A stretch of DNA of 64,000 bases from Bryopsis sp. KO-2023 (lineage: Eukaryota; Chlorophyta; Ulvophyceae; Bryopsidales; Bryopsidaceae), in NCBI GenBank assembly GCA_030272585.1, contig BSYQ01000008.1, positions 2,604,001-2,668,000 on the forward strand. Reading direction: 5' to 3'. The first letter of the stretch is position 1; the number at the start of each line of letters is the position of its first letter. The notes below the pieces were generated by a model. It made no database searches, was not told the DNA's origin, and worked only from the letters and a program-made list of their open reading frames with translations. The position numbers and the translations under genes were made by a program. This document shows positions 52,158 through 64,000 of the stretch, piece by piece.

Positions 52158-55100
52158 ATGAGGCTAAGTTTTTTAAGCAGAGGTGCGTCAACGAACGGCA
52201 CGCTCCTCAATCGAGCGCCGTTGAAAGTCAATCCTTTGCCGAGATGTCTTGAACGGGTTCTAGCTCCCGCCAGCAAGGTGAATAGACGCGCTGCTAGATG
52301 GCCCCTAAACGTCGCAGCTCCAGGTAGCTTTTGGAAGTCCCGACTTGTGGGCCCCTGTTCTTTTATTGACCGCGAAAACTTTCACAACACCATAATTCAA
52401 TTACAACCAGAAGTTGAGTAGCTTTTCGTGTTGCCACCTGTATGCATGAAATATGAAACCAGGGTTTTGAAATGCATAATATGTGTGTCAGATTTGCAGT
52501 AACAAAATCTTGTGTCGACAACCGAATTTCAGGACAGTTTCTTTTTCCTTGCCTTGGTTGATACTTTTGTGTTTTTCTGTGTTTGTTTCAGATGCACCAT
52601 CTGTTGAGAAAGAACCTATAAAGTTACCAGAGCTTGTGAAAGTGGAGGGCCCACTGGTTGGAGAAGATGGGATCCCTCTGGTTTATGACAAGAAATTGTT
52701 GGAAGTGAGTTGAAGCAAGCCTCAGGGTGTTGGGAACACAGATCCTTTTTCTTTTGAAAGTGCCAGCATCTGCTTGACCTTGTGAGGATTTTTTTTTTTT
52801 TCTTTTCTCAGAAAGTATAAGGATCAAGATCTTTCAATAATGTATTCAATGTGTGTTTTCACAATAACTCACTGCAGATATTGGCAGATAAACCTCAGCA
52901 AACTGTATTCTGTGGGATGCATGTCAACCCGGTGGCCTTCCTCGGTGCATTCAGAATTGCGGAAATTTCTTTTTTTTTTTCCTCGCAGAGAAAAGAAAAG
53001 AATGTATATTCTATATGTATTTATTTTGCATATTATCTCGTGTTTTGTTGAAGTCCTTTTTCTGTTGCCCGATATTGTAGGAGTACTGGAACAAACGTCC
53101 AGGTCAAATGCAGCAGAGATGGACTTTTTTTTTATCCCTTTCTGTCCCATTTATTTCAAGACTTGTGCGAGACTACACGGCGGGGACACTCGTACAAAAC
53201 GAAGTCGAAATTGCTGAACGGGCAAGGTTGGGAAATACACAAATATAGATCTATGTCTGGAAATCATTCTCGGTTCACTCCTAGATGTTTGTTTTGGTAA
53301 CTGTTCAAAGCACATCTCAAAAACTGAAAGGATGCAAATCAGGCATTTTTGAGCTTATTGCTGTTTGGATCTTAGCATTTCACTTTTTTTTGGGGGGGGG
53401 GGGTTCAATTCTGTGTGGCGATGATAGGATCAACATGGAAAAGCTGGGCCCGACGTTTATTAAGCTGGGGCAAACAGTTTCTGTTCGACCTGACGTCTTG
53501 AGCGACGCCGTGAGAGGAGAGCTGCAGAAACTCCAGAACAACGTCGAAATATTTCCAACGGAGCTTGCAAGAGAAATCATCGAGGCAGAGTTGGGCCAGC
53601 CCCTGGACGAAATTTTTTCAGAGATTTCAGAAGAGCCTGTGGCAGCCGCTTCCCTCGCTCAGGTTTTTCAATGAAGCTCTTCGTTTTTTCTTTTATTGCT
53701 TTGTGTGTGTCGATTAAAAAAACTCGATCACTGAAGGGGAAACCAGCTGTCAAGAGAGTAATATTTTCGGTGTTCAATTCATTCAGTTTTCTTCGTATTT
53801 TTTTTTACCTGTTTTCAGTAGGTGTGCAAAACCCAGCGTGAGCCAATTTTCTGAGCGTGATTTTTCCCTGCCCTCCCCAACCTCCTTTGTATTTTTTCTT
53901 GTGAGCCAGGTGTACAAGGCTCGCCTGCGAAGCTCAGGAGAATACGTCGCAGTCAAAGTGCAAAGGCCAGCCGCCCTCGAAACGATTTCTCGAGATCTGT
54001 ATGTAATGCAGAGAGCAGCGGTGGTTTACCAGCAATTGGTGGACCGATGGACCGTCCAAAAAACTGACTATGTGGAGTTGCTGGACACCTGGGCGGAGGG
54101 CTTTTATCAAGAACTCGATTTCGAAAGGGAAGCTCGAAATCAAGCTAGGTTTGGGGATATAGTCGAAGACATGGATGGGATTTATGTTCCGAAGGTGCGC
54201 AAAGTTTCCCTTTGTTTCAGTTCTTTGTCATTATGGGCTGCTCATCAAACCCGCAAAAGTTCTTGAAGGAAGTTTTAAAGAAATTTCTGACAGGTTACAT
54301 CATCTATTGATTGCTTTCTAGTCGAATCTGCTTTTTCCTCCAGTTTTTGAAGCTTTGTTTGTGACCAGGTGTATATGGAGTATTCATCAAGACGCCTTTT
54401 GGTAACAGAATGGGTGGAGGGGACAAAGTTGACCCAATCATCTCCCGAAGAAATTCAAAGGCTCATCAAGATAGGGAAAGAATGCTACTTGAAACAGGCA
54501 AGCTTCTCAGCCAAAATTTTGTTGGACATGTATCGATTTCGATTTTGTTTCGATTTCGACATGTATGTCTGCATTGAATTAAAAAAAACCAAAAACCCAC
54601 TTCCATGAGTATTTGATGGGGGAGTTATGGGTGCCAATTGAATTCCCATCCCTGTTGTGTGTGTGTGTGTTTTTTGCAGCTCCTGGAAGTGGGTTTTTTT
54701 CACTGCGACCCCCACCCTGGTAATCTACTGAAAATGACAGACGAGAGCAAGGGTCAACTGTGTATCATCGATTTCGGGCTGGTGACTGAAGTTCCAGAAG
54801 ATGTCCGGGACGTCATGGTCAGAGCGACGATTCACTTGGCCAACAGGGACTTTTCTCAGTTGATTGACGATTTCGTGGAGCTGGGCTTCTTGCCAACGAA
54901 CATCGACAGAAACAAGGTATGCGTGGTGCATCCAATCATGACTGTGGTGGTCAAATGAAACAGAGATAATAAATTTGTTGCTTTTGTTGTATTTTCTCTC
55001 AGCTTCACAGACATGAAACGATCTGGTGTGTATGTGTCAGGTGGCGCCCCTTATGAAAACGATTCTGGAGCCTTATGTTGTCCAGGGGGGGGGTGCCAAG

Positions 55101-56276
55101 GGGTTCATCGAGAACGGAAACTTCCAGCAAATGACCAAAGATATGATCAGTGCCACCGTAGAGATTCCGTTTGCAATACCACCATACTTCTCTCTGCTGG
55201 GCAGGGCAATCGTCAGCTTGGAAGGGATCGCCCTGGTGGGGGACCCCGACTACCGAATGGTAAGGAAACCCTGCCCGGCACTCTCTGCTCAGAACTCTGG
55301 TGTGTGTCCCTCCTTTCCTGGCTTGGCGTAACGAAGTGTGATCTCGCTAGGTAATGGAGTCGTATCCCTACATTGCCAGGCGTTTGCTGAGGGACAACAA
55401 GGCATCCATGAACCTCGCGCTGACGGAGATCCTGTACAGCAAGGATGGAAAGTTCCGCCCTCAACGGCTGTCTGTGCTTCTGAACAGCGCTCTGGACAAC
55501 GCCGCCAACTCGTCCGCGTTCGTGGATTTCGATTCTATGCCCGAAGATAGTGCCAGTTTGGAGCGAATCATCGAATTGTTGTTGAGCGAGGACGGCGCGG
55601 GAGTGCGACAAACGTTGATCCAGGAGCTCTCCATGGCCCTTGATTTGGTGCTCCGTCAGGTGGGAACCCAAATCCACCTTAACCTTGGTGAACAGAGGTC
55701 ACCCTCTGCAAAGCGAACCGTTGGGTTACACGAAAAGGCCCGTTGAATGCAAGGAAATCTGTGTTGAATCGAACCAGACACGATTGGAAACGCTGACGAA
55801 AAGCCAACGCCGTGTTTTCGCAGGCCGGACGGCGGTTCTCTGACCAGGTTTTGTCCGTACTGGCGCCGCCGACACCACCCTTCCCGGTGCCCTCTTTCCT
55901 CGTGCCACCAAACCCTTTCAATTTCCCCCCCATCAAGACAGCGCAGACCCAAATTCTCGACGCTTTCGCCCCAACTTTGACGCCTGAGGAGGAGGTGTAC
56001 GTGCGGAGTTTGTTCGATCTGACCGCCACTCTCGCTGGCGTGGATCCCAAAGTTGTGGAGAATCTGACGCCAGAGGCTTTGCTGAAGTTGGCAACCCAGC
56101 CACCAGGACAGAACGATGGCTCGTCCTTTTCTGAGCTGCGAGATGTCGCTGGGCTTCTGGGGTCGTCTTCGGAGCAGGGGGAGCGCTTGAGGGAAATGGG
56201 GACGAGCATTTTTGAAAACGTCGCGCAAATGTACAACCAGAGGTTGAACGAGTTCGTTCAGAGGGCAGCGCGCTGA
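52158..56276 (+). CDS. ABC1/UbiB-type atypical kinase, plastid type
   Basis: Member of the ABC1K (ADCK/UbiB) family; plastid members act at plastoglobules in prenylquinone metabolism and stress response. Exons 52158-52323, 52592-52704, 53081-53226, 53428-53662, 53910-54194, 54369-54497, 54680-54916, 55041-55259, 55351-55659 and 55824-56276 join in phase and give 763 residues. Exon 1 is basic and Ser/Arg-rich without acidic residues until the end, like a transit peptide. Motifs in order: EYWNKRPGQM, LGPTFIKLGQTVSVRPDVL, AAASLAQVYKARL, VAVKVQRP, FYQELDFEREARNQ, TEWVEGTKL, FFHCDPHPGN, IIDFGLV, GGGAKGFIENGNFQQM and IALVGDPDYRM. The Ala-rich nucleotide loop, the KxGQ motif, the catalytic Asp/Asn and the DFG are kept. 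EYWNKRPG and the long C-terminal extension resemble ABC1K1/ABC1K3. One intron is GC-AG. Confidence 0.92.
54498..54679 (+). other. GC-AG intron in ABC1K gene
   Basis: Exon 54369-54497 ends in aaacag followed by gcaagc, and the next exon begins after tttttgcag at 54680. Both frame and family alignment (CYLKQ then LLEVGFFHCDPHPGN) require this junction, so the donor dinucleotide is GC. No GT nearby keeps the frame. Confidence 0.75.
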
Positions 56277-56842
56277 TACATAATCATGCTTTGCAGTGGA
56301 CGAGCTGTATACGAATTTGCTTTTACAGGGGATTTCATTGTTATTTACACTATTATTTATTCTTTGCTCGTGGCCAGTGGTCCTGTAGAGCGGGTGGATT
56401 TTAAATTGAGACGAATTGTTATTCATTTATGTGGTTTCGACGTGAATATTTGTGTGGCTGTTTGTCTCAAGTCTCCTCTCCCACCTGAATTGGGGCAAAA
56501 AAGTAAAAGAAACCAGCCCGGTTGAAGGCTGAGGTGTTTAATACATAATGGAAGGGTAAGATTGGTGATTGTCGAGTTTGGATGAGGATTTGGTTAAGCC
56601 ACCGAGCTTTGCTTCGTTTCCAGCAGTCAGTAAAATGTTCGTTCCCACAGTGAGACAGACAGCAAAGTCCAATCACTGGTGATCACTGGTGCTGCCAGAT
56701 GCAATTGGGACAGTGAGGGAGGAGCGCGAGCGTGTGATAGTTGCAACAACAACAATAATTACATCTTGCATGAGGGGCCACTCGCCCTTATCGCAACCAA
56801 TGTTCCAAACGATTAATCCAATAAAAAAATAATCCTTCAATG
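56277..56842. other. Convergent spacer
   Basis: Lies between the 3' ends of the ABC1K gene and the dUTPase gene. If the dUTPase has another 3' exon it should lie here; none is convincing. Confidence 0.4.
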
Positions 56843-57258
56843 TCAATACCCAAATGAATCAAACCCACTCGAATCTCTCACCATTGCTGATATAGTCTCC
56901 GCCACTGAAATCTCCGGGGTCGAAATTTCCCCAAACACCAATTGGGCAATCCTATCCCCTTTTCTGACCCAATAATCATTCCCAAAAAAAATGAAAAGAA
57001 CTACCTTAATGGGACCTCGATAGTCCGAATCAATAACTCCTGCCGTAACCACCATAGAATTACGAACGCACAACCCTGAGCGGCTCTTTAACCAACCATA
57101 AAGATTCGAAGGGATTGCTCTCGCTATCTTTGTTTCAATCACCGCTTTCCCCCATGACGGAACACAGCGATCTTCAATACTAGATATATCATAACCCGCT
57201 GACCCCATCGTAGCGCAGCTAGGAACACTAGCTTCAGACGACAAGAGCTTGACTTGAA
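56843..57258 (-). CDS. DUT: dUTP diphosphatase, 5' end incomplete
   Basis: Trimeric dUTPase hydrolyses dUTP to dUMP and pyrophosphate, keeping uracil out of DNA. The frame begins VQVKLLSSEASVPS, as family members do shortly after the start. It contains motif I (GSAGYDISS), motif II (YGWLKSRSGL), motif III (GVIDSDYRGPIKVVLF, with the catalytic Asp and the Tyr of the uracil pocket) and motif IV (KGDRIAQLV). Motif V, usually R..GGFGSTG, reads RDSSGFDSFGY before the stop. A donor-like GTGAGA lies just before it, so the true motif V may be in an unfound exon. The 5' boundary is taken at the acceptor AG (57259-57260). No ATG precedes the first stop at 57275-57277. A phase-compatible donor (GTGAGT) sits at 57364, bordering LINE-like sequence. 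Confidence 0.77.
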
Positions 57259-57365
57259 CTATTGGAATTGCTATTCAACAACAACGCCCTAGCCCTTAAA
57301 AGTGCTCTAAAAAGTCTTGCTACCCAGATTTAATCAACATCATAAAAAAGTCGCCTAAACTCACC

Positions 57366-57460
57366 CTTGTTTGTTTCTATTCGTTTCGTTGATTTGTTAA
57401 GGCGTTTTTTGGTGGGCGTTTGACTGTAGCTCTCGCTCTCTTTTTGGTTATAACAAGGAA
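57366..57460 (+). mobile_element. Relic of LINE subfamily-1 3' untranslated region
   Basis: Resembles the 3' UTR of the LINE copies at 59279-59375 and 60370-60480. It shares ttgtttgtttc, ggtgggcgtttgac, tagctctcgctctc (tagttttcgctctc in the intact copies) and tttttggtt. It is diverged and truncated, so older than the others. Confidence 0.6.
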
Positions 57461-57997
57461 ACAAGGATTACAAGTTGCGTAGTGCAAAAACCTCCATGTT
57501 GCAACGACATACATGGGTGAATCGTGTCCCAACGTTCGAAGCAAGGCAAAAGCCTCTGAATGTAATTGATAGTGAAGCTTGTGGGTGACGCAATAGTGGT
57601 CGGCTGTGTTGGTTGGATTCGTGATAACTTGCTGGCTAACGCAAGTATACTTGTGGGGTTTGTTGCTTTAGACAACTCTCTAGCTAGCGCGGTTGTGAAC
57701 GCTACTGGAACACTTGGTTGGATAAGTGATTGCGTCAGGCAAACACTTAGACACACACACACACAAACACACACACAAGCGGGAACACACCAATCCCACG
57801 AATCCCGAGTTCTTACAAAGTAAAAGATGTCAAAACAACGAGTGGGCCTCTTAAGTACCCCTAAGTATAGTACGCTGACGCATGCCCCAAACTCTGGGTC
57901 TAATCTGTCTTACTCGCGAACCCACATGCGTCAGCCACCCTCGGCTCTATCCCAAACTACCTCGTATAGCGCTAAAAGACTAACAGTAATCAACTCC
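57461..57997. other. Spacer with CA repeat and hairpin
   Basis: Contains an acac microsatellite at about 57751-57779 and a perfect 11-bp inverted repeat, gctgacgcatg at 57874-57884 and catgcgtcagc at 57925-57935, with a 40-base loop. Open frames over the CA repeat are not called. Confidence 0.5.
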
Positions 57998-58037
57998 TAA
58001 ATAAACAATTCTGTTTCTGTTTCTGTTAAATAAACAA
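57998..58037 (+). repeat. Short (TTTCTG)n insertion flanked by 11-bp direct repeats
   Basis: The sequence taaataaacaa at 57998-58008 is repeated exactly at 58027-58037. Between them lies ttctgtttctgtttctgt (18 bp), identical to the 3' tail repeat of LINE subfamily 1. It has the form of an insertion with a target-site duplication. Confidence 0.8.
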
Positions 58038-58039
58038 AA

Positions 58040-58957
58040 TCTCCTAAAACAAAAAAAGATTTCCAATGTCTCAGAAATCAGAGATCCCCAATTGAAAACT
58101 CGAGAAAGAGCCCAAATATCGAAACAATAAACCAAACACAAGAATCGGTCGCTTCCAACTCAGAAACCCAGATGTGACGGGACTTTGGTTGTGGTTGTGG
58201 TAGAACAACACGCCCGGTGAAACGATCGAATAAACTTACAAAATATCCAAGTCGAATGTATCTCAAACGACAAGACCCCATTTGTACTCGCTTCTCCCTA
58301 ATCCGGTACACAACTACCCAGGGTTACAACGATCCAAATTGATCTTCCCAAACTCCATAATTGGTAGGCCCAAACTAAGTAAATCACCCAATCTACTCAG
58401 CCCCACAATAAACCAATCCGCAAATAAACTCCACTAACCACTCGCCACTAAACCCCCGTTCGATCCACAATCTGTTACACCAGAGCGAGCGCCCAACAAA
58501 CAGAGCAAACAACAAAGAACACCAACGTCCCCATCAAGCAAATCATTCAAAACAACAAAAAACAAACACCACCAGTCGCTACAAGCCCACTACGAACGAG
58601 CGTCCAACCACTCCCTGCGCAAGGCGAGCGCCCGGCGAATATAAACAGCCACACGAACCTGCCCCGGACAATTGAACAAACGAAACAGAGAGCCACGACT
58701 CTCTTCCACGACCGAGGCCACACGCAACCGCGCATAAAGTGGACAAGCAAAAATAAAGTGCACCTCGTTTTCAGGCGTCGAAACCCCAGCGTCCAAACGA
58801 AACAGGCAATACCTCTCGTGCAAAGGCACGTCCCTGTCATTCAAGTCCACATCATCGATCTCCAAACCGTGGAGACGAGCCCGAAATCGCACCCAAGTCG
58901 TACGCAAACGCAGATCGGTAAAAGAAGACAGCGCGTTCGTATAACAAAACGTCGGTT
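58040..58957 (-). mobile_element. LINE copy B (subfamily 2), 3' half, split by copy A
   Basis: Minus-strand 5'-truncated LINE. It encodes the end of ORF2 from KPTFCYTNALSSF through WVRFRARLHGLEIDDVDL, a degenerate zinc-knuckle region (CLFRLDAG where other copies have CPFCLAAG) and the end ALRREWLDARS at 58590. The 3' UTR continues to about 58040. Its UTR matches the copy at 63829-64000 but has about 290 extra bases. The upstream half lies at 59599-59965, displaced by copy A. Confidence 0.82.
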
Positions 58958-59598
58958 TGACGGACGGTGTGGGTGCGTTTTCGTGCGCGTTTGCACGGTT
59001 TGGAGATCGACGTGGCGGATCTGCTACGGAGGGATGTGCCTTTGCACGAGCGTTTCTGTCCTTATTGTTTGTCGCAAGGCAACAGGACGGCTGAGAACGA
59101 GCGGCATTTCCTGTTCTTTTGTCCGTTGTATTCTGGTTTGCGTGTGGGATCAGTTGTGTCTGAATCGGGGTTTTCGTTGCGTCGTTTGTTCAATTTGCCG
59201 GGTCAGTATCGGGTGGCTGTTTACCTTCGTCGGGCGTTGGATTTTCGAGCTCAGTGGCTTGAGGCTCAGCCGTGACGTGGTTTTTGTTTGTTTGTTTTGT
59301 GTTTGTTTGTTTCGTTTTGTTTGTTGGTCGTTTGTGGTGGGCGTTTGACAGTAGTTTTCGCTCTCCTTTTGGTTGTTGCTTGGTGTTCCGGGTTTCTTTT
59401 TCTTGGGAACTTTTTTTGGCAATACTTTCTGATACATTGATTCCTTAGTGATGGGTCTCTCGTTGATTGTACTGGGGTTTTATTGGAGACTTCATCTTCT
59501 GTGGACTTTTGGACATGGCTGAGACATTGTATGTGGTTGCAACAGGGCGGATTGGCCCTTCGCAACATGTAATTTCTGTTTCTGTTTCTGTTTCTGTT
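58958..59598 (+). mobile_element. LINE copy A (subfamily 1), 5'-truncated, nested in copy B
   Basis: Plus-strand insertion containing the last 103 codons of ORF2 (WVRFRARLHGLEIDVADL to FRAQWLEAQP, stop at 59273-59275), the full 3' UTR and a terminal (TTTCTG)4 tail. The flanks share tttga (or gtttga), a 5-6 bp target-site duplication. Removing it makes the copy-B reading frame continuous (NRF joined to KPTF). Confidence 0.88.
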
Positions 59599-59965
59599 TG
59601 AACCGATTGTAATAAGGAACGATACGCGGATGACGAGAACGCAACTGACCCACAATGTCTGCCTTGTAGGCACGCGCCCAGGTCGCCACGTCCACCTCCA
59701 CAAATCCATCAAACTGTGGAACAAAGCGCCTCACCCTATCGCGAAACTGAACCCACCAAGAACGCCGAGAATCCGGCTGACCACGCAACCAGAACAGCAT
59801 CGCCCGCGTGGGATGCGACTCTTGCAGTTGCACGAGACGATTCCAAAACTTCAGCGCGTTCCGGTACAAATAAAACGTGACCGGCAAAACACCACACTCC
59901 AAATACACGAAACTCCTCAACGCCCTCGTCGGAAGACGTAACACCGATTTGAGGTAACGTTTGCT
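59599..59965 (-). mobile_element. LINE copy B (subfamily 2), upstream half
   Basis: Minus-strand ORF2 segment from KRYLKSVLRLPTRALRSF through NALKFWNRLVQLQ and RRFVPQFDGFVEVDVATWARA to HPRIVPYYNRF. It aligns throughout with copy C (KRVLRLPVRTLRNV and so on). The 5' end is truncated near 59965, where plus-strand ORF1 sequence of copy D starts. Confidence 0.85.
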
Positions 59966-60150
59966 GCGTTCCCCAGCGGAGTTGACAGGTTCTGCCGCTC
60001 TTGCTGACGTGTGTACTGGTACGGCTGGCACATCACATCCTGTTGCATCGAATACCTTGGTGGAGGGCTTTGCTCAAACTGAGCAAAGCAAGGAGATATC
60101 TTCTGCAGTGTTTGCTGATATGTGTACTCAGACAGATCGCAGTTCTCTAG
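59966..60150 (+). mobile_element. LINE copy D, ORF1 upstream fragment
   Basis: Open plus-strand frame with a duplicated motif (ALADVCTGTAG and VFADMCTQTDRS), interrupted at 60150 by copy C. The frame resumes in phase at about 62656 across a 4-bp tagt duplication. Confidence 0.6.
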
Positions 60151-60484
60151 TACCAAACAGAAACAGAAACAGGAACAGAAATTACATGTTGCGAAGGGCA
60201 AATCCGCCCTGTTGCAACCACATACAATGTCTCAGCCATGTCCAAAAGTCCAGAGAAGATGAAGTCTCCAATAAAACCCCAATACAATCAACGAGAGACC
60301 CATCACTAGGTTATTAATGTATCAGAAAGTATTGCCAAAAACGTTCCCAAGAAAAAGAAACCTGGAACACCAAGCAACAACCAAAAGGAGAGCGAAAACT
60401 ACTGTCAAACGCCCACCACAAACGACCAACGACCAACAAACGAAATCAAACAAACAAACACAAAACAAACGAATAAAAACCACG

Positions 60485-62641
60485 TCACGGCTGAGCCTCA
60501 AGCCACTGAGAGCGAAAATCCAACGCCCGACGAAGGTAAACGGCCACCCGATACTGACCCGGCAAATTGAATAAACGACGCAACAAACACCTCGATTCAG
60601 CCACAACCGATCCCGCACGCAAACCAGAATACAACGGACAAAAGAAAAGAAAATGCCGCTCGTTCTCAGCCGTCTTGTCGCCTTGCGACAAACAATAAGG
60701 ACAGAAACGCTCGTGCAAAGGCACGTCCCTCCGTTGCAGATCCGCCACATCGATCTCCAAACCGTGCAAACGCGCACGAAAACGCACCCACACCGTTCGC
60801 AGCCCGATGTCTTCGAAAGACGACAGCGCCCGCGAGTATCCAAACACCGGCTTGAACACGTTGTAAAACGCCACGATTCGAGGATGTCCCGAACGAAGAC
60901 GAGCCACGATGTCCGCCTTATACGCCGCAGTCCACGACGCAAGATCCACCTCTGCAGAACCATCGAAGCCAGGAGCGAATCGACGCACCATGTCCTTGAA
61001 CAATACCCACCAAGAGCGCTGAGAAACCGTGGCCTCCGATCGAAGCCAAACGATCAACTGACGAGCCGGATGGTCCACAGGCAAAGTCATCATGCGATTC
61101 CAGAATCGCACCGCGTTCTTGTTGAAGTAATAAAGGATCGGCAGAGCGCCCATCTCCAGGTACAAAACGTTACGAAGCGTCCTCACGGGCAGCCGCAACA
61201 CCCGCTTCAGAAAACGAACCTGCAAACCGTTGAACGCATCCTTGTGCGCCCGAGTCAAGAAAAAGCACCACACCGGCGCCGCATACTGAACCTTCCCCAA
61301 AACATACATGCGAAACAAAGCCAGAAGCGTCTTCGGATCGCGAAGCCCCAGATCCCCGGATCGAGCCAACAAACGCCCCACCGCCGCCTGTCCGTTTTGC
61401 AGAGTTCTGTCGATATGATCCCCAAACACATTCACGTTGCCCGGACCATCCTTGAACAAAACGCCCAGATATTTCATCGTAGATTGCAACTCCACATCCA
61501 CTCCGTTGAGAGACACAGTCGAGAGCCCCCGCGCATTCACTACCATCCCTTCCGTCTTCTCCAGATTCTGTTTCTGTTTCTGTTTCTCCAGATTCGTCTT
61601 CACTCCCCAGTCGCGCTCATACTGCCCCAGCACGTCGCCAACAGCCGAGACATCCTCCACCGACGAGCACGGCACCAGCGTGTCGTCCGCAAAGATGAGC
61701 GCCACAATGATCGCCAAGCCCAAAATAATGTGGCTGACCTGCGCCCCCTCCAGCAGCCGCGGAAGATTGTCATGGTATAACGTGAAGAGCAACGGACTGA
61801 ACGGACAGCCCTGGCGAACGCCCCTGCCGATTCCAAACGGCGCCGTGCACCCCTTGGTCCCACGAACCACCGCCGTGGAGTTCTCGTACATGAACTTCAG
61901 GAGAACGAAAAAAGGATCAGCCAGACCCAACCGCCGCAAGTGCAACCACAACCGCGAATGGCTAACGCTGTCGTACGCCTTCTCCAAATCCAGCGAGAGC
62001 AAAATCAGCAAAGCACCAGATCGCCGCGCCTTGTACAGCAAACCCCAAGTCACGAAAATCCACGTCGTCGTCTCGCAACCACGCCTGAATCCAGCTTGAG
62101 AGAGGTGTCGAATCGGATCCAGAAGAGGGGCCAACCGCTCCATCAACAAGTACACAAACACTTTGTACCATAAGGTACAAAGCATAATGGGCCGGTACCG
62201 GAACGGGTCCCCCTTAGAACCACGCCGCTTCCAGATGGGCCTGATGACGCCCAGAAGCCACCGTCGCGGCACGCGACGCTCAGCAAGACACCTGTTGAAC
62301 ATGGCCACCAGCAGCGGCCGCCAAGCGTCCGCCAAGCCTTGTCCCTTAAAGAAGGCAGGAGTCCACGAATCGGCGCCCCCACAGGTACGCAAATGCAGAC
62401 GCCCCAAAGCCGCCGCCACCTCGAATTCCGTAAAAGGTTCCACCAACGACGGATAAGACAAGCAATCTTCGTGAATCGAAACCCGAGGTGCCGGATCATC
62501 CCCATCCAGACCACGTTCCGCGAAGAAGTCCGCAAAATAACGTTCCCAAACAGCCACATCCACACCATCAGACGCACGCTGACCCTTCGGAAACAGAGCA
62601 CGATGAAACGCCCGAGAATCACTCGTGAACAGAGCCTGCAT
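60485..62641 (-). CDS. Non-LTR retrotransposon reverse transcriptase (ORF2, truncated)
   Basis: An uninterrupted frame of 718 residues. Its RT domain includes YRPIMLCTLWYKVF, LSLDLEKAYDSVSHSRLW with a catalytic Asp, GVRQGCPFSPLLFTLY and IFADDTLV with the catalytic Asp pair. After a thumb/connection region it ends in a zinc-knuckle block (CPYCLSQGDKTAENERH plus a later Cys) typical of zf-RVT retroelements. The apurinic-type endonuclease normally N-terminal to RT is absent through 5' truncation, so it cannot retrotranspose by itself. An in-frame 27-bp insertion (see 61557-61595) adds nine residues, giving a repeated NLEK around KQKQKQ. The absence of stops suggests recent insertion. The first ATG is probably just the first Met in the truncated frame. 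Confidence 0.9.
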   Translation of the reverse strand: MQALFTSDSRAFHRALFPKGQRASDGVDVAVWERYFADFFAERGLDGDDPAPRVSIHEDCLSYPSLVEPFTEFEVAAALGRLHLRTCGGADSWTPAFFKGQGLADAWRPLLVAMFNRCLAERRVPRRWLLGVIRPIWKRRGSKGDPFRYRPIMLCTLWYKVFVYLLMERLAPLLDPIRHLSQAGFRRGCETTTWIFVTWGLLYKARRSGALLILLSLDLEKAYDSVSHSRLWLHLRRLGLADPFFVLLKFMYENSTAVVRGTKGCTAPFGIGRGVRQGCPFSPLLFTLYHDNLPRLLEGAQVSHIILGLAIIVALIFADDTLVPCSSVEDVSAVGDVLGQYERDWGVKTNLEKQKQKQNLEKTEGMVVNARGLSTVSLNGVDVELQSTMKYLGVLFKDGPGNVNVFGDHIDRTLQNGQAAVGRLLARSGDLGLRDPKTLLALFRMYVLGKVQYAAPVWCFFLTRAHKDAFNGLQVRFLKRVLRLPVRTLRNVLYLEMGALPILYYFNKNAVRFWNRMMTLPVDHPARQLIVWLRSEATVSQRSWWVLFKDMVRRFAPGFDGSAEVDLASWTAAYKADIVARLRSGHPRIVAFYNVFKPVFGYSRALSSFEDIGLRTVWVRFRARLHGLEIDVADLQRRDVPLHERFCPYCLSQGDKTAENERHFLFFCPLYSGLRAGSVVAESRCLLRRLFNLPGQYRVAVYLRRALDFRSQWLEAQP
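61557..61595 (+). repeat. In-frame (TTTCTG)n insertion flanked by 12-bp direct repeats inside ORF2
   Basis: ttctccagattc occurs at 61557-61568 and again at 61584-61595, bracketing tgtttctgtttctgt. The 27-bp net gain keeps the ORF open. It has the same structure and the same core repeat as 57998-58037. Confidence 0.85.
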
Positions 62642-62655
62642 CCTGTCGCCATAAG

Positions 62656-63477
62656 ATAGTTGATTCTATCAGTCAGTTGGAGAAGAAATCGAATCTCCTG
62701 TTTGTTGGTGTACCTGATTCGGAGGCTGAACGGGGTCCTGCCATGCGCGACACAGTTGTTGTCATCTTGGATCGGCTTCAGGACGAGCTGATGGATTCCT
62801 CGACAGAGCGGTATTCCTCTCACGTCGCGTTCGTGACTCGTCTTGGTCGTTTCCGGGCTGGTGCTCGTCCGCGGCCTCTACTGGTGCGGTTTAAGACCGA
62901 TCTGATTCCATTGGCGTTGTGGGGAATGAAGAAGGACATCCGTTTGGCCATCTCTGCTGGCAGCTTGGCTGGTGTTCCTGCCGGTTTTGGCCTTCGACAC
63001 GATCTGACGGCTCGTCAGCGAGCGATTCGCCAACAGTTGATGCCGATTCCCCAGTTGGCGTTTAAGGAGAAGGATCGCCCTGACGCTCGTCTTGAGAGGG
63101 CGTTCTTCGATGATGAGCGTCTTTTTGTGGTGCCCAAGGTTGGCAGGCCACTCCCGGTCACGATCGATGGCCCGGATACCAGGTGGAGGGGTATGTTCGT
63201 GGATATGGCGGCTCTGACCGACATCCTTTTTGGGCCTGTGGGTGGACATCATGGTGGTCCTCCTCACCAGAACGGTTCTGCTCCATCGGGTTCGCGTGCT
63301 CATCAGGGACCTGTTGGTTCTGAGTTGGTTCCTTTTTCTCCAGCGCTTCAGATGGGTGGTGAATCACCACTGGTGATCCCATCACGATCGATGAATAGGG
63401 GTGCGGCCGACCGATATTCCTTCGTCTCGGAACGTGGAATCTTCGGTTGGCAACTGTGGGGAAGATGGCCTGTTTGA
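62656..63477 (+). CDS. LINE ORF1 protein (copy D), 5' part displaced by copy C
   Basis: RNA-binding ORF1 protein of L1-like retrotransposons. After a short coil (SISQLEKKSNLL) come the RRM-like start LLFVGVPDSE, the family block VTRLGRFRAGARPRPLLVRF, the helical region IRLAISAG, and HDLTARQRAIRQQLMP of the C-terminal domain. A Gly/Pro/Ser-rich tail ends at the stop 63475-63477. Its beginning lies at 59966-60150, beyond copy C. The tail GIFGWQLWGRWPV may result from the deletion that joins it to ORF2 remains. Confidence 0.8.
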   Translation: MVDSISQLEKKSNLLFVGVPDSEAERGPAMRDTVVVILDRLQDELMDSSTERYSSHVAFVTRLGRFRAGARPRPLLVRFKTDLIPLALWGMKKDIRLAISAGSLAGVPAGFGLRHDLTARQRAIRQQLMPIPQLAFKEKDRPDARLERAFFDDERLFVVPKVGRPLPVTIDGPDTRWRGMFVDMAALTDILFGPVGGHHGGPPHQNGSAPSGSRAHQGPVGSELVPFSPALQMGGESPLVIPSRSMNRGAADRYSFVSERGIFGWQLWGRWPV

Positions 63478-64000
63478 TTGAAGGCGCTGTCTTCTTTTAC
63501 GGATTTGGGTTTGCGTACGACTTGGGTGCGTTTTCGGGCTCGTCTTCACGGTTTGGAGATCGATGCTGTGGACTTGAGTGATAGAGACGTGCCTTTGAAC
63601 GAGAGGTATTGTCCGTTTTGTTTGGCCGCTGGGGTTTCGACGCCTGAAAACGAGGTGCATTTTCTTTTTGCTTGTCCGCTTTATGTGCGGTTGCGTGTGA
63701 ACTCGGTCGTGGAAGAGAGTCGTGGCTCTCTGTTTCGTTTGTTTAATTGTCCGGGGCAGGTTCGTGTGGCTGTTTATATTCGCCGGGCGCTCGCCTTGCG
63801 TAGGGAGTGGTTGGACGCTCGTTCGTAGTGGGCTTGTCGCGACTGGTGGTGTTTGTTTTTCGTTGTTCTGGATGTTTCGTTTGATGGGGAAGTTGGTGTT
63901 CTTTGTTGTTTGCTTTGTTTGTTGGGCGCTCGCTCTGGGTTTCTGAGTTGGAAGCGACCGATTCTTGTGTTTGGTTTTATGTTTTGACGTTTGGGCTCTT
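63478..64000 (+). mobile_element. LINE copy D, 3' end (subfamily 2), runs off window
   Basis: The last 116 codons of ORF2 (KALSSFTDLGLRTTWVRF, CPFCLAAGVSTPENEVHF and ending ALRREWLDARS at 63828), then 3' UTR matching copy B to the window end. The RT domain is missing: ORF1 is followed directly by the ORF2 C-terminus, so an internal deletion removed most of ORF2. Alternatively it is a separate 5'-truncated insertion. Confidence 0.85.

Follow-up and report, generated by a model that had tools for sequence, protein, structure and literature searches.

Two short inserts in a nested LINE cluster

The window analysed here, i.e., a stretch of 64,000 nucleotides from Bryopsis sp. KO-2023 (C8:2604001–2668000; the genome comprises 91 Mb in 28 contigs, here numbered with the prefix C), is filled over its last 7 kb by nested pieces of long interspersed nuclear elements (LINEs), and two short (TTTCTG)n arrays in this part are each enclosed by perfect direct repeats. 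With a probability of about 0.9, both would be minimal retrotransposition products of a resident LINE, formed by target-primed reverse transcription (TPRT) which ended at or just past the tail of the element. This reading is drawn from sequence comparison; it is preferred because of paralogous sites that are empty, a private base shared by the two duplications of one site, graded LINE remnants, duplications and 3'-junction microhomology as in LINE-bearing copies, one replicate with another tail unit, and a resident element encoding an APE-type endonuclease and a reverse transcriptase. Three rivals, namely replication slippage, repair of breaks and a later loss of the LINE body, were ranked below retrotransposition.

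At site 1 (57998–58037, all features on the plus strand) the left target-site duplication TAAATAAACAA (57998–58008, 11 bp) is followed by insert 1, TTCTG(TTTCTG)2T (58009–58026, 18 bp), and by the right duplication (58027–58037), again an exact TAAATAAACAA. At site 2 (61557–61595, likewise plus strand) the left duplication TTCTCCAGATTC (61557–61568, 12 bp, exact match) precedes insert 2, TG(TTTCTG)2T (61569–61583, 15 bp); the first four bases, TTCT, of the right duplication TTCTCCAGATTC (61584–61595) also continue the tail. Left repeat and tail are separated by 0 nt at both sites. The original prediction had described cores of 15–18 bp between perfect repeats of 11 and 12 bp, and its coordinates proved exact.

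Two resident elements, LINE-A and LINE-B, are concerned. The open frame of LINE-B (1094 amino acids) contained an APE-type endonuclease (PF03372) and a reverse transcriptase (PF00078), both above the cut-offs of a profile search. Site 1 is surrounded by sequence that corresponds, in antisense, to the stretch of LINE-B lying between frame and tail. Insert 2 is antisense to LINE-A copy C (60162–62656, minus strand), which is 98% identical in DNA and 99% in protein to a copy on C6, the match to the latter ending at 62656. In the frame of copy C the profile search gave a reverse transcriptase match and found no endonuclease domain; copy C is 5'-truncated and presumably inactive.

Empty sites

The motif AACAAAATCTCCTAAAA of site 1 occurs at 52 other places in the DNA examined, all of them uninterrupted; the single-copy variant at these places is TAAATGAACAA in 51 and TAAAGGAACAA in one. 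A private G-to-A change is present in both flanks of insert 1. Since TAAATAAACAA stands on both sides of the insert and at none of these 52 places, the duplication must have included the private base.

Related LINE copies sharing the second insertion, which the original prediction had named as counter-evidence, were looked for at site 2: each of the 10 other copies aligned across it, the C6 copy included, lacks exactly 27 bp. The LINE-A copies on C4 and C10 end near site 2 and were therefore excluded from this count; their 5' ends lie within about 15 nt of the position of insert 2, a near-coincidence. Insert and duplication together amount to these 27 bp, so the nine added codons that had been claimed for the LINE frame are present and the frame stays open, reading TNLEKQKQKQNLEKTEG against TNLEKTEG in the C6 relative, about 35 residues beyond the FADD motif. 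Because copy C is 5'-truncated and presumably inactive, the in-frame addition would most simply be due to chance.

Three further inserts can be compared with uninterrupted copies. The 28 bp insert at C10:1233260 consists of 7 nt of the LINE-B 3' end and the tail, and is absent from all 19 copies that could be aligned there. The open frame over this match has 716 amino acids, as compared with 772–1261 in the 19 other LINE-B matches (query residues 1–717; eight of them have 1094), a shortening which is what an insert of 28 bp predicts. At C1:5760415, an insert of 21 bp with a duplication of approximately TTCT is absent from both aligned copies, and at C8:2706864 an insert of 26 bp with the duplication TGTAC is absent from two copies; the latter insert recurs at C8:2680501. 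A proposed role of such inserts in adding peptides to proteins was not borne out, as the sole in-frame addition is that in copy C, which is 5'-truncated, and the C10 insert goes with a shorter LINE frame.

If the hexamer arrays had grown in place by replication slippage, the repeats around them would be coincidental. The arrays are indeed short repeats, and the TTCT in the empty site of C1:5760415 could seed slippage; however, no TTTCTG array is present in the empty copies of either window locus, slippage would not duplicate 11–12 bp of host sequence together with a private base, and several arrays are preceded by graded LINE 3' ends. A smaller array at the site in relatives, with no host duplication, would be the hallmark of slippage and was not found. 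We regard this explanation as very improbable. The same low rank is given to decayed remnants, i.e., longer LINE insertions which lost their body by a later deletion that left tail and duplications behind. The nested and rearranged state of the cluster copies is in favour of such losses, but at many independent sites the deletion would have had to stop precisely at the duplication, and the duplications are still perfect; no paralogue with a longer LINE piece was seen among the 10 copies at site 2 or the 52 at site 1.

Graded remnants and junctions

Nine short-remnant arrays have repeats of 10–17 bp, including 1–4 bp in common with the tail (8–14 bp without them). The distance between left repeat and tail is 0 nt at the two window sites, which belong to the nine, 2 nt at C2:6395513, 5 nt at C2:6437123, 5–6 nt at C13:2166142, 9 nt at C1:4664765 (some 1 Mb away from the cluster on C1), 15 nt at C4:5220440, 20 nt at C7:3228794 and 24 nt at C7:3241285, both C7 remnants being rearranged. 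The two C7 sites have the internally repeated remnant ATGTAATTCGCAACATGTAA in common, as if they stemmed from a single variant RNA or from template jumping.

The right-hand repeat begins 1–4 bases inside the array in 9 of 9 sites with repeats of at least 10 bp, the tail being continued by the first bases of the target. Summed over these nine sites, the overlap at the 3' junction is 20 nt (P = 3e-7 at a match probability of 0.25, 4e-5 at 0.33), and 11 LINE-bearing sites give 21 nt (P = 7e-7 and 8e-5, respectively). At the 5' junction, site 1 has AA and site 2 has ATTC as host bases, both in agreement with the junction between unique sequence and tail of LINE-B, GTAATTCTG; a stop inside the tail therefore looks the same as one a few nucleotides beyond it. 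The proposal of tail-only TPRT stands in its core, whereas the statement that synthesis stopped within the tail is not supported, since termination at the boundary or just beyond it fits equally well.

Staggered breaks filled by captured cDNA of a LINE tail, or by templated insertion of the polymerase-theta type, could have produced similar inserts without normal nicking by the LINE. Short homologies at the 5' junctions and the C10:1233260 insert, with its missing duplication, would suit such break repair; the overlap of right repeat and tail in all nine sites argues against it, as does the occurrence of the same features in LINE-bearing copies. It appears improbable, though somewhat less so than slippage or decay.

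All 76 places with the LINE-A 3' end, CGCAACATGTAA, continue with TTTCTG; the LINE-B 3' end, CGCAACTTGTAA, continues with TTCTGTTT in 26, TCCTTGTA in 25, TCCTTGTT in 24 and other units in 4 of the 79 places examined. One unique LINE-B end thus has TTTCTG, TCCTTGTA or TCCTTGTT as its tail unit in different places; TCCTTG and TCCTTGAA are rare LINE-B tail units, and the 8-mer units resemble the adjoining CTTGTA, as if they had been made by template slippage. At C1:5753233, a (TCCTTGTT)n tail with 4 nt of LINE is flanked by a repeat of 10 bp, of which 2 bp are shared with the tail. Among four distinct TCCTTGT-type arrays lacking a full LINE end, this one has the 10 bp repeat, that at C14:551154 has 6 bp, and two have none of at least 5 bp. 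This single site suggests, thinly, that the scar follows the LINE tail rather than the hexamer.

Frequency of direct repeats

Short-remnant arrays were defined by less than 25 nt of LINE 3' end; 46 had enough flanking sequence, and 40 were left after arrays with shared flanks had been dropped. As a null, each left flank of these 40 was combined with the right flanks of the others (1560 pairings). Repeats of at least 10 bp were present in 8 of 20 arrays inside the clusters, in 1 of 20 outside, and in 0.19% of the re-paired flanks; 0.13% of the pairings reached 11 bp and none 12 bp. The lone outside array with such a repeat carries LINE sequence; without it the comparison is 8/20 versus 0/19 (P = 0.002). 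The outside set of 20 is a part of the places listed, 47 places and 4 of 6 from another listing having been left out; three of its members carry LINE 3' sequence (C1:4664765, C1:8262779, C1:10004089), and two others have repeats of 7 bp.

The comparison of flanking repeats with those of other short tandem repeats, which had been suggested together with the original prediction, favoured it in the DNA examined at a limit of 10 bp: 25 distinct unrelated arrays of period 5–8 included one with a repeat of at least 10 bp, inside a degenerate larger repeat (8/20 versus 1/25, P = 0.004). LINE-bearing copies with 26–900 nt of LINE behaved similarly, 11 of the 38 junctions judged having repeats of at least 8 bp as compared with 1.35% of re-paired flanks; longer copies were set aside, as above 900 nt the reference yields lower bounds only.

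Distribution of arrays and length of the LINE remnant

Among the matches listed, scored LINE matches form a single cluster per contig on 13 contigs (C1–C11, C13 and C14), with a few short pieces on C1 outside its cluster and no scored match on C12. Cluster limits were set by eye from the same matches. A listing of (TTTCTG)3, taken up to its first 100 places, comprised 76 arrays on C1–C7; the clusters of these seven contigs, one on each, contain 71 of them, and two of the five outside carry LINE 3' sequence. A seeding of hexamer repeats across the genome, as had been supposed, is not supported by this concentration.

Less than 26 nt of LINE are present at 9 of 49 distinct in-cluster junctions on C1–C7. 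The rate of stopping per nucleotide was 0.0071 in the first 26 nt, 0.0037 at 26–59 and 0.0029 at 60–119, which is suggestive, though no proof, of an early block. The firmer statement is that of very early truncation by a resident LINE, the tail-only products belonging to the same distribution.

Several points weigh against retrotransposition ending at or just past the tail and have to be set beside the evidence above. All empty sites are paralogous copies, neither alleles nor strains. No duplication accompanies the insert at C10:1233260 despite its clean empty sites, and those at C1:5760415 and C8:2706864 have just about 4–6 bp. For the junction overlap the longest repeat was chosen, so that overlap with the tail was counted wherever present. 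Twelve of the 20 short in-cluster arrays lack a 10 bp repeat; some of the twelve belong to ordinary copies with interrupted or abutting tails, and interrupted ordinary tails (e.g., C8:2664155 and C10:1257810) were kept within the 20. Four of the 25 unrelated arrays reach 8 bp, which is above the re-pairing null, mostly in repeats containing their own unit. The excess of early stops is just about twofold.

Proposed mechanism

By analogy with known LINEs, the endonuclease would nick one strand of the target, and the nicked 3' end would pair through 1–4 bases with the (UUUCUG)n tail of the LINE RNA. The reverse transcriptase would then copy the tail and halt at or just past the boundary between tail and unique sequence, before a predicted 3' stem-loop. 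With the second strand cut about 8–17 bp away and the cDNA joined, often perhaps via short homology, the tail and a target-site duplication would remain. The action of the enzymes and the order of these steps, as well as the stem-loop as cause of stopping, are inferred.

A stem-loop was predicted for the three LINE-A and LINE-B 3' ends (-14.9 to -15.8 kcal/mol, z about -2), closing five or six nucleotides before the tail; the stems are alike and thus provide no covariation. A tentative and rather doubtful extension would make a protein-bound 3' stem-loop a gate: reverse transcription would start in the tail, a sizeable share of events, to judge from the 9 of 49 junctions with less than 26 nt of LINE, would be resolved before or within the stem, and tail-only scars would be a regular by-product, peppering centromere-like clusters with short repeats.

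Other features of the region

The LINE cluster of C8 spans about 56700–64000 in the window, and as in the other clusters its copies are nested and rearranged. It is adjoined by an intron-containing gene at 53500–56276, putatively for an ABC1/UbiB-like kinase. Ordinary (TTTCTG)n tails are located at 59573–59599 (plus strand), at a LINE 3' end, and, slightly interrupted, at 60155–60181 (minus strand), where the tail belongs to LINE-A copy C. In a third LINE-like 3' end on the minus strand (56735–56800) the GGGC/GCCC core is similar and the tail reads TTATTG(TTG)n; this end folds differently (z -1.33). At C3:2755259 two tails meet head to head in a TTTCTG/CAGAAA palindrome, of which there are four occurrences on C3.

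Comparison with known elements and significance

LINE insertion by TPRT depends on endonuclease and reverse transcriptase, makes duplications of variable length, places the tail at the 3' junction and frequently ends in 5' truncation. All of these features are common to ordinary 5'-truncated insertions and to the arrays described here, in which truncation is at its limit and the hexamer tract has little or no LINE body. A tail-only insertion is thus a variant of a known process and not a new one.

According to passages of two reports (PMC3446292, PMC8226300), Zepp and Zepp-like LINEs of green algae form one nested cluster per chromosome, probably centromeric, and consist mostly of 3' ends produced by 5' truncation. 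One cluster per contig, nesting in own copies and mostly 5'-truncated 3' ends are alike in Bryopsis; the tails made of repeat units differ from what these passages describe, and the likeness is one of layout. Stringent-type LINEs, as portrayed in parts of two other reports (PMC3747384, PMC4176376), have a 3' stem-loop and a tail of short repeats, e.g., UnaL2 with TGTAA repeats and the L2 LINEs of zebrafish. The predicted stem-loop just before a repeat tail would be alike in these and the present elements, whereas the repeat units differ. No tail-only LINE insertions with a microsatellite tail were described in the titles and abstract openings of the literature searched, which covered few subscription journals.

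A poly(A) tail would make tail-only LINE products hard to recognise. With a distinctive hexamer tail, and with many near-identical paralogues serving as empty sites, such products become countable, as the lower limit of LINE 5' truncation, and the frequency with which reverse transcription terminates within its first few nucleotides could be estimated directly. The exact junctions also connect a retrotransposon with one type of short tandem repeat.

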